A stretch of 21,082 nt of DNA from IMG/VR virus record IMGVR_UViG_3300010938_000147, positions 1 to 21,082 of that record. One strand, 5' to 3'. The position numbers and the translations under genes were made by a program. This DNA comes from a virus. Shown here piece by piece: positions 15,626 through 19,684 of the stretch (positions are counted from its first letter, which is position 1; each line of letters starts with the position of its first letter). The notes beneath the pieces are model-generated. The model saw nothing but the letters and a program-made list of their open reading frames with translations. It made no database searches and was not told the DNA's origin.

Positions 15626-15964
15626 TTATTGTTTTAACAACTCGAAAAAATTATCCAAGCTCATGACGATAAGAGGCTCTGATCTGTTCTGCTTGATAAC
15701 AAGCAGCGGTATCTCTCCATCATTCACGTGTGTAGTTGCTTGTTCATAGTCATTATAGATAGCAATACTGGCTTTGTTCTTACATTCCACGGCATAGTTG
15801 AAATAATCCAACGCCCTTTGTGATAACTGTATATCACGTCCCTTCGTTCCAGATGAAGTACTTCTTACATCATTCTCCGTTAGATCCGGGAACGTCTCCA
15901 GTATTTTCTTCACTACCAGATTTTGCAGCAGCCTCCCTTTGTTTTTCGCGCTTTTCGGTTTCAT
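15626..15964 (-). CDS. PD-(D/E)XK-type nuclease
   Basis: The 112-aa protein has the PD-(D/E)XK core: a helix with Gln14 (GRLLQNLVVKKIL), SSGTKGRDI with Asp44, AVECKN with Glu60-x-Lys62, and a later YEQA (Tyr73-Gln75). This arrangement is seen in small phage endonucleases related to Holliday-junction resolvases and RecB-type nucleases. The opening KPKSAKNKGRLLQ is basic and family-like, so the start at 15964 is kept although it overlaps the exonuclease gene by 95 bp in another frame. Likely role: processing of branched or recombining phage DNA. The exact substrate is not visible. Confidence 0.75.
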   Translation of the reverse strand: MKPKSAKNKGRLLQNLVVKKILETFPDLTENDVRSTSSGTKGRDIQLSQRALDYFNYAVECKNKASIAIYNDYEQATTHVNDGEIPLLVIKQNRSEPLIVMSLDNFFELLKQ

Positions 15965-16637
15965 CCAATACCTCTTTTAGTTCTTCTTCAGATCTGATTA
16001 CACGGTATAGACGATAAAACAAAGAGAAATCGAGCCCGGCTTCTCCATAGCGGCTGCGAACAAAGGCTTCCATTTCTTTGGGATCAAGGCCATTAAGGGC
16101 TTTTCTTGCTCTTGCTGGTCCGATGGACGGAATTCCTCGCAGGTTATCCGCAGAGTCCCCAATGAGCATCGAGGACCAAAAAGCCAGCGCAGAATCACGC
16201 TCGTCCATTTCAAAAAACTCGCCTTTGATAAAATTGTAATGTTGTCCGGGGATTTGTAAAAGATCTTTGTCGATGGTGCAGATGATAAAATCGCCTTTAG
16301 CCTCGATTCCAATTCCGTCGTCAGCTTCAATTCCGGAAGTGACTTCACTTTTCCATTCTTCAACCAAAAATTTACGAAGTTCGTCAAGCCATACTGGTCG
16401 TGGTAAATGTTCACGATTAGCTTTGTACAGCGGATAGAGCTTTTTTCTAAAATTTCCAGTGCCTGATATAAAGAGCCGATATTCAGTAGATTGAGTGTCA
16501 CTAACGATGCGGTATAAGAGGGAATCTGCTCTGGCAATTGCGATGTCAAGGGGGTCTCGTTCATGTTTTTCTTTTGTTGGTTCACAGGAAGCTGCACATC
16601 TATAAGCAACAATGTCGCCATCAATAAGGCATAACAT
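15870..16637 (-). CDS. 5'-3' exonuclease (FEN / PolI-N type)
   Basis: The 255-aa protein has the flap-nuclease acidic residues in order: LIDGDIVAYR (Asp6, Asp8), a basic arch segment FRKKLYPLYKANR (63-75), IEADDG (Glu104, Asp106, Asp107), TIDKDLLQIPG (Asp123, Asp125), and GDSADNLRGIPSIG (Asp161, Asp164) with a helix-hairpin-helix at 168-181. Such enzymes remove RNA primers and 5' flaps in replication. The separate gene complements the polymerase, which has only a 3'-5' domain. AAGGA lies seven bases before the ATG. The C-terminal 30 residues are charged and look disordered, and are coded in the overlap with the next gene. Confidence 0.85.
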   Translation of the reverse strand: MLCLIDGDIVAYRCAASCEPTKEKHERDPLDIAIARADSLLYRIVSDTQSTEYRLFISGTGNFRKKLYPLYKANREHLPRPVWLDELRKFLVEEWKSEVTSGIEADDGIGIEAKGDFIICTIDKDLLQIPGQHYNFIKGEFFEMDERDSALAFWSSMLIGDSADNLRGIPSIGPARARKALNGLDPKEMEAFVRSRYGEAGLDFSLFYRLYRVIRSEEELKEVLDETEKREKQREAAAKSGSEENTGDVPGSNGE

Positions 16638-16880: not shown

Positions 16881-17408
16881 TTACTTGATCTCTGCTTCGT
16901 CGGCAACTTCCCAAGTATCCTTGGGAGTTACCTCATTAGTGTTGTCTTCCGACATCACATAATTCTCGAATACCTTGGCAAGAGCCAGAACTTCTTCTAC
17001 TTTAGGACGCTTGCCTTGGTCCTTATAATACTCGATTGCAGATGCAATAGAGCTTTGACGAATAATGTAAACCTGCCTACGAGCACGCTCATCAGCCGTC
17101 TCATAGTTTGGCCGTGTCGATACAGGAATAGGCTTTCCTTGAACCATCTGATTAGCTTCCTCCTTAACTGCTTCTACCCAATCCCAAAAACCTTTATCGT
17201 TCTTCTGTGCTTTTACTCTATACACTTCACCCTGTTTTGCATTTGAAAGTGCATTCCATGTAGCCTGCTCAGTAGTAAATGACATCAAGGATTTCTTGCC
17301 TTCTTCCCGGTTCTTGTCCAGGTTATGGTAACTTATATCCATTTGTGTGTATTTGTTTCTGCCCTTGACTACATTCTTCGTAGATATTTGTTTGATCTCG
17401 ATTAACAT
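16881..17408 (-). CDS. Probable ssDNA-binding (OB-fold-like) replication protein
   Basis: The 175-aa protein has a beta-rich N-terminal half (residues 1-80) with KQISTKNVVKGRNKYTQMDI, MSFTTEQATWNALSNAKQGE and a VYRVKAQKNDKGFWDWVEA strand. The aromatic and basic residues are of the kind that bind ssDNA. A helical segment follows (ADERARRQVYIIRQSSIASA, then IEYYKDQGKRPKVEEVLALA) and an acidic tail. Similar proteins stand next to the polymerase in other podoviruses and act as ssDNA-binding proteins. The strong promoter just upstream, AGAGGA five bases before ATG, and the terminator downstream suggest abundant expression, as such a protein needs. I recognise the pattern but not a certain family. 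Confidence 0.55.
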   Translation of the reverse strand: MLIEIKQISTKNVVKGRNKYTQMDISYHNLDKNREEGKKSLMSFTTEQATWNALSNAKQGEVYRVKAQKNDKGFWDWVEAVKEEANQMVQGKPIPVSTRPNYETADERARRQVYIIRQSSIASAIEYYKDQGKRPKVEEVLALAKVFENYVMSEDNTNEVTPKDTWEVADEAEIK

Positions 17409-17427: not shown

Positions 17428-17456
17428 ATTATATCTAATTCAGTTCTGTTTGTCAA
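17428..17456 (-). promoter_or_regulatory. Perfect sigma70 consensus promoter
   Basis: On the minus strand TTGACA (17456-17451), a 17-base spacer (17450-17434) and TATAAT (17433-17428) match the sigma70 consensus exactly. The -35 box lies inside the last codons of the polymerase C-terminal gene. The expected start, near 17420, leaves a leader of only about 12 bases carrying AGAGGA (17419-17414) before the ATG of the ssDNA-binding candidate. Confidence 0.92.
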
Positions 17457-18168
17457 TACCCTGTTTTTGGTATTTATCCATTTCCCTGAGGTTAGGACCA
17501 ATTTTAACCTCGCATGGAAACTTGCATGGTAAATCTATATTCCATATAGCCTTTACATTCTTTGGAAGGTAAGTGTCAAATACATCATACATGAGGTTGG
17601 CTACATCTTTTGCTTCCTCCTCTGGGCAATCAGCGACAATCGAATCGTGGACAGTAGACACCAGCAGGGACCGCATCCTTTTTTCATTCATGTTCTTTCT
17701 TAGGCTTATTCTTGTTATCGCAAGAAGATCGTTTCCGGTACCCTGTACCGGGTAATTGGTCAAAATTGTCCAAGGAATCATTCCATTTTCTTTTAGTCCT
17801 ACTAACCATTCGCGACCAAGCGGTGAGCAAATGGGCTTATTTCTTATGACCAGATCGGCAAGATTTCTATGATACCTGTCTATCCCTTTGTACTTATCAT
17901 AGAACTTCCTGTTTATTTCATCCCAAAAATCAGGATCATCAGAAACGCCCATAAAATCAGGGTCATTAGCGAAACTCCAGCCAGAACCACGGTAAATAGT
18001 ACGAAATAGGTACTTTTTGGAGATAAGTCTCGTTGGTAGATTAAATGCCTTTTGATTCGTCGAATGAACATCTATTTCCTCATTAAGCTCATGAAGACCT
18101 ACTGGATCGTTAGCTAGCCAGTTAAGAACTCGCCATTCAAGTTGAGATGCGTCACATTGCACATACAT
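17440..18168 (-). CDS. Family A DNA polymerase, C-terminal half (palm/fingers)
   Basis: The 242-aa protein starts five residues before motif A (Asp6-A-S-Q-x-E-W-R) and carries motif B (Arg47, Lys51, Phe55, Tyr59, spaced four residues apart as in E. coli Pol I R754/K758/F762/Y766), NYPVQGTGND (138-147), and motif C VHDSIV (His174, Asp175, Ser176). These form the polymerase active site. Phe at position 55 corresponds to the residue that in Pol I favours rejection of dideoxynucleotides. Motif C has Ser where most members have Glu. The protein lacks the thumb and first palm residues, which are in the upstream gene. It must pair with that product to be active. Confidence 0.85.
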   Translation of the reverse strand: MYVQCDASQLEWRVLNWLANDPVGLHELNEEIDVHSTNQKAFNLPTRLISKKYLFRTIYRGSGWSFANDPDFMGVSDDPDFWDEINRKFYDKYKGIDRYHRNLADLVIRNKPICSPLGREWLVGLKENGMIPWTILTNYPVQGTGNDLLAITRISLRKNMNEKRMRSLLVSTVHDSIVADCPEEEAKDVANLMYDVFDTYLPKNVKAIWNIDLPCKFPCEVKIGPNLREMDKYQKQGIDKQN

Positions 18169-18169
18169 C

Positions 18170-18358
18170 TTATTGCTTTTTCAAAAGTGCTGGAATCTGT
18201 CTTGACATCTGCTTGAACGTGACTTTCTTTCTTAGCTCTTCGAATAGATCAGGGTAAACTAATTCCATTTCCGAGATAAGATGAGAAAGTTCATCGTTAT
18301 CCATGTGATCTTTCAGTCTCAGAATGGTGTAGTATATCGAATCAGGTTGTTTTACCAT
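18170..18358 (-). CDS. 62-aa ORF lying inside the split polymerase
   Basis: The ATG overlaps the polymerase N-half stop (ATGGTAA) and the stop TAA is one base before the C-half ATG, so all three frames are tightly coupled. The 62-aa product is helical and charged (YTILRLKDHMDNDELSHLIS, then EMELVYPDLFEELRKKV, ending QIPALLKKQ) with normal codon use for the region. I see no homing-endonuclease motif (no LAGLIDADG, GIY-YIG or HNH) and do not recognise a family. It could be an accessory polypeptide of the polymerase, or an inserted small gene that caused the split. Confidence 0.65.
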   Translation of the reverse strand: MVKQPDSIYYTILRLKDHMDNDELSHLISEMELVYPDLFEELRKKVTFKQMSRQIPALLKKQ

Positions 18359-19473
18359 CGTGTCGTAATAAGCTGTTGAGCTTCATCTGAAAGATTTTGT
18401 ATGTTCGGGGATTTACTTGAAAGCCTACCTGTCCTTGCTACTACCTGAGTAAAGGTAGTATGCAAAAGGTTGTCTTTCCAATTCATCTCTTCATACAGCT
18501 TTCGAAATCCCTCATAGTAGGTTGTCTTTAGCTTATTCAATTCCTTTATTTTAAGGATACTATCAATGAGTTCTCTATCCCCTCCTTTGAGTTTCAAAAG
18601 ATAAGTTTCATCCACTGACCAGAAACCTGGCTTTTTGAGTTCAGATCCTTTGACTGGAGTAAATTTTCTTGGAAGTGTATAAGTTACCTCCTCGTTCTTT
18701 AGCTTAAGTTGTCCTTTTTTCTGTCCTGATTTATACACCCCATCAGGAACTTTAACGGTGAAAGTAAGATCGCCACCGTAAAGCAAAGCAGAAAGGTGCT
18801 CGTTAGAATTCCAATTAAAGTTGGGAATGCTGTGATGAATAGCAAGCTTGTCTTGTATCTCCTTAATCTTGTCATCGATTTCTTTTTCTTTTTCTTTTGC
18901 TTTTTCTATGTCAAAGTGAATTCCATTCCATTCCATTTCAGCAAGAACTTTAAGATCTAACATAGAAATCATCATCAACTTTGCCTGATGTGGGCGCATC
19001 GCACTTATTTGTTTTTTGTAAAGCTCATAAGTGAGCCTCACATCCTGCAAGGCATACTCTGCCAATACCTCCCTAGGAATCTTGTCCGTATTTATCCCAT
19101 TGTTCCAGTACTCTTTTTCAATTACATCTATCTTAGAACCGAGTCCATATTTTTCGCATACACCATCAAGTGATGGATAAGGATTCTGCATCCTGTCATG
19201 AATAAATTCGAACAATTGGCAGCACCAGACAGGCTTGTTCTTGATGTCTATATTCAGTTTCCTAAGCCAATGAAGGTCGTATTTTGCATTGAAGAATACA
19301 AGAAGATCTGCTTTGTTTATTTTTTCTTCCAAAGACTTTTTATCATGAAACAGTACACCCTCATCGTCGTCGGATTTGAATGAGATGCATACATTGATAT
19401 TTCTGGTATCGAATGGATTCCCTTTGTTGTAGATGGTATTTTCAGTATCTATAGCAAGAATTCTTTTAGTCAT
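18352..19473 (-). CDS. Family A DNA polymerase, N-terminal half (3'-5' exonuclease + thumb)
   Basis: The 373-aa protein has the three proofreading motifs: Exo I LAIDTENT (Asp9, Glu11), Exo II FFNAKYD (Asn62, Asp66) and Exo III YALQDVRLTY (Tyr140, Asp144). A thumb region of charged helices follows (KAKEKEKEIDDKIKEIQDKL), and the end has RTGRLSSKSPNIQNLS (347-362), the polymerase motif before motif A. It stops at TTRW, where a complete enzyme would continue towards motif A. The C-terminal half is encoded 183 bp further on. Together the two total 615 aa, within the usual range of T7-like enzymes. The replicative role is clear; how the halves combine is not. Confidence 0.87.
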   Translation of the reverse strand: MTKRILAIDTENTIYNKGNPFDTRNINVCISFKSDDDEGVLFHDKKSLEEKINKADLLVFFNAKYDLHWLRKLNIDIKNKPVWCCQLFEFIHDRMQNPYPSLDGVCEKYGLGSKIDVIEKEYWNNGINTDKIPREVLAEYALQDVRLTYELYKKQISAMRPHQAKLMMISMLDLKVLAEMEWNGIHFDIEKAKEKEKEIDDKIKEIQDKLAIHHSIPNFNWNSNEHLSALLYGGDLTFTVKVPDGVYKSGQKKGQLKLKNEEVTYTLPRKFTPVKGSELKKPGFWSVDETYLLKLKGGDRELIDSILKIKELNKLKTTYYEGFRKLYEEMNWKDNLLHTTFTQVVARTGRLSSKSPNIQNLSDEAQQLITTRW

Positions 19474-19684
19474 CTACAGTCTCAAGCTCAGGTCTTGGTC
19501 TCTGATACTGAGGTTGAAGTTTGAGTATAAATATGTTATATCTCAATATCTCCAATTGATCTTTTTTTAATTGTGATGCAATTTTGTCTACAAGCTTCTC
19601 GAAGTTATGAACTGCATTCGTATAATGATTCATTATTATTTCATTTTTGTCGAGCTTGAAACCTTGGGTTTCGATGACTAGCAT
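19466..19684 (-). CDS. Small hypothetical protein (72 aa)
   Basis: The start is supported by GGAGAG six bases before ATG. The 72-aa protein begins with a short beta part (MLVIETQGFKLDKNE), then a helix (NHYTNAVHNFEKLVDKIASQ, then LKKDQLEILRYNIFI) and a Pro/Arg-rich acidic tail that overlaps the polymerase start by 8 bp. No motif recognised. Position just before the polymerase suggests a replication-linked role, but this is only context. Confidence 0.65.
   Translation of the reverse strand: MLVIETQGFKLDKNEIIMNHYTNAVHNFEKLVDKIASQLKKDQLEILRYNIFILKLQPQYQRPRPELETVDD

Follow-up and report, generated by a model that had tools for sequence, protein, structure and literature searches.

Can a family A DNA polymerase work when its gene is cut in two inside the palm domain, and how would such a cut have arisen? 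This question is raised by a locus on a stretch of viral DNA of 21,082 nucleotides (positions 1 to 21,082 of IMG/VR record IMGVR_UViG_3300010938_000147; hereafter the window). The split is neither unique to the window nor unreported. In 2023, a split of this polymerase accompanied by a small unknown ORF was described in the OM43 phages MEP401 and MEP402, whose authors considered an intron and left the idea untested (PMC10580990). These phages are members of the clade analyzed here, and they have the same cut, with separate exonuclease/N-palm and C-palm ORFs and the small ORF14 between them (PMC10580990). What is new here is the clade-wide analysis, the evidence against an intron and the recognition of a family of small proteins encoded in the gap.

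Layout of the locus and the predicted fold

The first-pass annotation had described a two-piece family A polymerase that is cut before motif A, with a 62-aa ORF (ORF62) between the pieces, and coordinates and Pfam matches confirm this description. The N-half, ORF62 and the C-half follow each other in tandem on the minus strand, and the two halves add up to 615 aa (373+242). The features are as follows:

18352..19473, minus strand: N-half, 373 aa, with the 3′-5′ exonuclease domain, the thumb and the first part of the palm (TGRLSS..TTRW); Pfam DNA_pol_A_exo1 5.6e-09, DNA_pol_A 5.2e-20
18352..18358, minus strand: ATGGTAA, the ORF62 start and the N-half stop in a 7-nt overlap (from the sequence)
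18170..18358, minus strand: ORF62, small conserved protein, 62 aa (family profile, dN/dS, AF2)
18166..18172, minus strand: TAAGATG, the ORF62 stop, a 1-nt gap and the ATG of the C-half (from the sequence)
17440..18168, minus strand: C-half, 242 aa, with motif A, the fingers (motif B) and motif C; Pfam DNA_pol_A 1.2e-20
15870..16637, minus strand: separate downstream gene for a 5′-3′ exonuclease, the third PolI-type activity; PF02739 1.1e-12, phrog_107 3e-48

The overlapping or near-adjacent stop and start codons noticed earlier across the three frames are thus a 7-nt overlap and a 1-nt gap. The N-half and the C-half share one reading frame in the window. The Pfam profile DNA_pol_A is divided between the two chains, the N-half matching profile positions 53-134; positions 154-378 are matched by the C-half, which starts 5 residues ahead of the motif A Asp. 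Across relatives, the exonuclease residues D9/E11, N62/D66 and Y140/D144 and the N-half motifs TGRLSS and QN show no or almost no variation, and the same holds in the C-half for D6/E11 of motif A, R47/K51/F55 of motif B and H174/D175 of motif C. Motifs A, B and C and the 3′-5′ exonuclease motifs of a family A (PolI-type) enzyme are all present. The claim that the motifs are complete in a sum of 615 aa holds, since unsplit relatives join the same two ends with only 3 residues and no motif is lost at the cut. A match of the N-half to DpoZ, the 2-aminoadenine polymerase, scored far under its cut-off.

Also nearby on this strand are genes for a RusA-like resolvase, a metallophosphoesterase and a B12-type ribonucleotide reductase. 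The immediate flanking genes at 16881-17408 (minus strand, 175 aa) and 19466-19684 (minus strand, 72 aa) have no PHROG or Pfam family match. A gene with similar size and ending (ARRQV.IIRQSSI.. motif) sits after the C-half in several relatives (L036, L042, L057).

It had been argued from the position of the cut that two chains would have to come together to form the active site, and structure prediction agrees with this. The window was read through as one chain with a linker, with stops set as Gly and ORF62 in its own frame absent, and was modeled by AlphaFold2 on an alignment of 18 relatives that were likewise read through or are unsplit. The model of this read-through chain has a mean pLDDT of 85 and a pTM of 0.81. 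The out-of-frame linker (375-433) is disordered, and both halves are well ordered and packed as one enzyme. In Foldseek, the model matches a Bacillus DNA polymerase I fragment over ~695 columns with TM scores of 0.70/0.81. The predicted structure supports a complete PolI/Klenow enzyme with the Klenow fold, and it supports non-covalent assembly from two chains. Split-intein joining was considered and rejected: the N-half ends at TTRW without an extension, the C-half begins at the palm strand, and there are no intein segments.

The cut in related viruses

With the C-half as query, viral contigs, GTDB genome contigs and phage records were searched. Both halves could be placed in 118 loci, namely 102 split loci (near-copies included; 57 rows after thinning) and 16 unsplit loci, all of which are distant relatives. 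The search for relatives with the same cut, proposed as a check of the locus, thus returned 102 split loci, nearly all cut at the same place. Typically, the N-half ends in SRY/TRW-like residues and the C-half has its initial Met (or GTG/TTG) 5 residues ahead of the Asp of motif A. The exceptions are Vibrio phage ICP2, cut ~14 residues further upstream, and L033, L076 and L099-L101, in which the true end of the N-half is hidden by an intron-like insert. In the unsplit outgroup polymerases, the cut site is a 3-residue turn (DGG/KGG-like).

In a tree built by a quick method from 57 split rows and 9 unsplit ones, a single change of state between split and unsplit is enough. The 56 split rows without ICP2 group together (SH-aLRT 99), and support drops to a weak 58 once ICP2, which sits on a long branch, is included. 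Judged from these sequences, the cut is old and common to the whole clade of phage polymerases.

The distance from the N-half stop to the C-half start ranges from -17 (an overlap) to 3598 nt, and nearly all loci have a start codon for the C-half of their own. Three contigs from two other metagenomes (L001, L002 and L003, ~95% identical) have exactly the arrangement of the window, and the same layout is present in phages that have been cultured or are complete. In five relatives, the halves abut or overlap (L034, L036, L042, L057, L084). At the other extreme, a cytosine methyltransferase gene and several other genes lie between the halves of the complete phage MW202796, which are 3.6 kb apart (L059:3402-7001), and this distance calls for assembly in trans.

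Since the layout recurs in 102 loci and is identical in L001-L003, it is not a product of chance, and about 100 related viral sequences with the same cut point to an inherited working arrangement and not to a broken gene. The window is one metagenome contig, and a pseudogene or an assembly or sequencing artefact could be suspected for this reason. The chance of this is close to nil, given the three ~95% identical contigs, the cultured or complete phages and the 102 loci that share the layout. Purifying selection stands against it as well. In comparison with L001/L003, dN/dS is 0.03-0.04 for the N-half, 0.05-0.06 for ORF62 and 0.05-0.06 for the C-half, and the changes are mostly at third positions (10 of 13 and 15 of 20 in ORF62, a sign of codon-level selection). 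With values of 0.03-0.06 in all three ORFs and 102 split loci, the earlier statement that random decay hardly explains the locus is upheld. A decayed copy beside an intact polymerase gene, which would have spoken for decay, was not seen: in 22 related viral records, no second intact polymerase was found (no other PF00476 match and no family B PF00136 match). In one of these records (G002), a third PF00476 match is its own C-half repeated at the other end of the contig.

If the two pieces are both in use, they may still be joined into one chain at the level of RNA or of translation. A self-splicing intron in the gap, as suggested for MEP401/402, would give a mature mRNA for one chain. Introns do seem to invade these genes. 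Group-I-intron-like inserts disrupt the frame at three further conserved polymerase sites, and they serve as a positive control for introns:

After LFR: L040 (3257-4000), L043, L044, L047; HNH ORF confirmed in L040
After NYPVQ: L048, L049, L121
After GRLSSSRP: L033, L076, L099-L101; HNH ORF confirmed in L033

The L040 insert has the elements AATTCAGGGGAA and GATATAGTCTGA, and its RNA folds better than shuffles (z=-2.2), whereas the gap RNA of the window folds no better than shuffles (z=+0.24). Rfam at its gathering cut-off gave no intron match on the window and 36 loci, and this silence is weak evidence on the window because the clear L040 insert was missed too. In the window, a selected ORF fills the gap entirely and leaves no room for an intron; no ribozyme structure was found there, and the C-half starts independently. 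Across the relatives, the start codon of the C-half is often stop-start coupled to ORF62, five loci have no gap at all or an overlap, and one has a gap of 3.6 kb holding many genes. An intron is thus highly improbable for the window, and it is an unlikely cause of the MEP401/402-type split for which it was first considered.

Alternatively, a frameshift or readthrough during translation would join the halves. This would be easiest to imagine in L084 (3998-4003), where the halves lie in one frame and a single TAA is directly followed by ATG, so that this is either a minimal split or a case of readthrough, and in L034, L042 and L057, which have short overlaps. In the window, however, the halves are separated by ORF62, which is read in another frame, and many genes intervene in MW202796. 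No common slippery site was seen, and a separate C-half start is kept in nearly all loci. Translational joining is, for these reasons, very improbable.

The small protein between the halves

ORF62 is predicted to fold into three helices followed by a less ordered, conserved C-terminal PALLKK tail (AF2 pLDDT 80). No convincing match was found for it in Pfam, PHROG, NCBIfam, PDB sequences or PDB folds. No nuclease match was obtained either, and the gap of the window holds no endonuclease gene. A profile made from the small ORFs of relatives alone, with the window left out, found the ORF62 of the window at E=2e-5, and the best unrelated protein among 3,769 proteins scored 0.5. Of the 102 split loci, 52 have a member of the family, between the halves in all 52, and it keeps this place where HNH, glutaredoxin or other genes share the gap. 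Among 38 loci with a clean motif A, 28 have the stop of the family member no more than 25 nt from the start of the C-half, often as TAATG. When viral contigs were searched with a single member, only close kin were found, each beside a split polymerase.

Short ORFs of other appearance (MEP type, L105 type and L086 type) lie between the halves in many other split loci. In profile comparisons, ORF62 and these three types gave P-values of 0.0015-0.036 with low probabilities and short alignments, and because of the latter two no homology is claimed; at the level of sequence, the similarity is only suggestive. For example, ORF14 of the MEP phages has the same position and differs from ORF62 in its length of 77 aa and in its weak profile similarity (hhalign E=0.036, low probability). 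In another relative, the gap gene is annotated as 'R67 dihydrofolate reductase' (L058:3767-3973, MW202697).

Taken together, the sequence data make it plausible that the ORF62 product is an accessory or assembly subunit of the polymerase. It is also quite possible, if somewhat doubtful, that the polymerase has two chains as proposed and that ORF62 is an unrelated small gene which settled in the gap and is kept there by translational coupling. Other small ORFs have settled in gaps as well, such as a zinc-ribbon-like ORF (L069), a glutaredoxin (L023/L030) and a 180-aa ORF (L013), and there are relatives with zero gap that lack ORF62. Against this, the family stays between the halves in every locus where it occurs while other genes come and go, and ORF62 is under strong purifying selection. 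An ORF62-like gene is absent from the fetched flanks of the five zero-gap or overlapping relatives (L034, L036, L042, L057, L084), so that the protein is not strictly obligatory across the clade.

Motif A inserts and the origin of the cut

The motif A of the window is clean. Of 113 C-half loci, 20 have a frame that is broken directly after motif A. The inserts responsible are 1, 2, 6, 7, 8 or 10 nt long and lie between the codons of DASQ(L) and those of (L)EWR, and most of them create a stop directly:

CTT/TGA: L027, L030
CTT/TAG: L025, L037, L038, L049, L080-L082
CTT TAG CCC: L006, L090, L121
CTT TAG CTT: L093
CAG TAG CGG: L023
GAA TAG CTA CG.: L033, L035
No immediate stop: L020 (7 nt), L031/L032 (8 nt)
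1-nt change in an A-run: L058
Positions, first set: L006:4001-4040, L023:867-910, L025:3978, L027:315, L030:3976, L031:3969, L033:3958, L035:3961
Positions, second set: L037:1956, L038:3972, L049:3984, L082:3981, L090:3995, L093:3995, L121:5001

The insert loci differ from the clean loci in their surroundings. Before the leader start, 15 of 17 insert loci have a strong Shine-Dalgarno sequence, against 6 of 93 clean loci. None of 14 insert loci has its C-half within 25 nt of ORF62, which is the case for 28 of 38 clean ones. Both sides of the insert look translated, since changes in the conserved 10-codon leader are mostly synonymous and the part downstream has dN/dS of 0.04-0.13 where computable. 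Most insert loci have no start codon that would serve the downstream part. From the sequences we infer that a full-length product would need recoding, by ribosomal frameshift or hop. A review of 2016 knew of no natural hopping over an in-frame stop (PMC5009743).

Four insert loci carry a partial upstream copy of the start of the C-half, including motif A codons (L020:1539-1565, L031:3502-3521, L006:3531-3550, L037:1336-1356). These copies precede an HNH ORF or its remnant, and the start is re-made downstream. Such copies look as if an endonuclease gene had inserted into motif A and the 5′ coding end had been duplicated in the process, and the motif A inserts are apparently linked to an HNH homing cassette. 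They resemble the bypass cassette of T4 mobA/gene 60 (PMC5009743), and the insert loci may hold such an HNH cassette with a recoding scar.

Precedents for this kind of fragmentation are known from other phages. In T4-type phages, homing endonucleases split essential genes that keep their function (PMC2988022). The family B polymerase of Aeromonas phages 25 and 44RR is split into gp43A and gp43B, and the pieces of phage 25 were reported to co-purify and to be active (PMC2988022). This system resembles the locus described here in that a replicative phage polymerase is made in two pieces and a homing endonuclease gene lies in or near the gap of gp43. It differs in the polymerase family and in the cut site, and no conserved family of small ORFs has been reported for it, while the window lacks an endonuclease. 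The split NrdA of Aeh1 (mobE) and T4 gene 39/mobA/gene 60 are further cases in which an essential gene is split by a homing endonuclease at a functionally critical site and the product assembles from its pieces (PMC2988022; PMC5009743). The bypassed insert of T4 gene 60 resembles the inserts that some relatives seem to carry (PMC5009743). The enzymes are different ones, however, and the window has neither an endonuclease nor a motif A insert. Closer to the present case, the family A polymerase of Vibrio phage ICP2 is annotated as a join and is split near this site by a 169-aa HNH-type ORF (L063:5152-5661). Its cut lies ~14 residues upstream, it branches outside the clade (weakly placed), and it has no ORF62 homolog.

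ICP2, L020, L031, L037 and L041 have HNH genes at the cut or close to it. Because endonuclease genes of the HNH type have landed in this region repeatedly, the split probably goes back to the insertion of a homing-endonuclease gene that was later lost, and by analogy the cut of the clade is most simply read as an old scar of such an insertion.

The proposed explanation is therefore as follows. The product of the locus would be a functional DNA polymerase of family A (PolI/Klenow-type) that consists of two polypeptides, with the cut in the turn just before the motif A strand. They would be made from one operon by coupled translation, with the N-half stop overlapping the ORF62 start and the ORF62 stop 1 base from the C-half start. 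The two chains would assemble non-covalently into a normal exonuclease-thumb-palm-fingers enzyme, and ORF62, a small helical protein made between them, would most likely act as an assembly or accessory subunit. As a whole, including a lost homing endonuclease as the source of the cut, we consider this explanation quite probable; the reading of the locus as a split polymerase is well supported, and from it and its relatives we infer co-assembly, catalytic activity, the role of ORF62 and the origin of the cut. A bolder version, which we think rather unlikely, has three chains, with ORF62 as an obligatory bridge or assembly subunit. There, the cut is the relic of an HNH cassette that re-entered motif A in about one sixth of the relatives and left an insert of 1-10 nt, usually stop-first, that ribosomes shift or hop across.

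A PolI-type enzyme of two chains, cut in the palm beside the catalytic aspartate, would, if true, be a natural split polymerase. It would serve to study how an active site survives fragmentation and how essential genes are reshaped by homing elements, and technology might gain a split polymerase that can be controlled. ORF62 represents a new family of small proteins tied to a replisome. If the motif A inserts of the relatives are truly recoded, they would provide natural examples of ribosomes that shift or hop over very short distances at stop codons within the gene of an essential enzyme.
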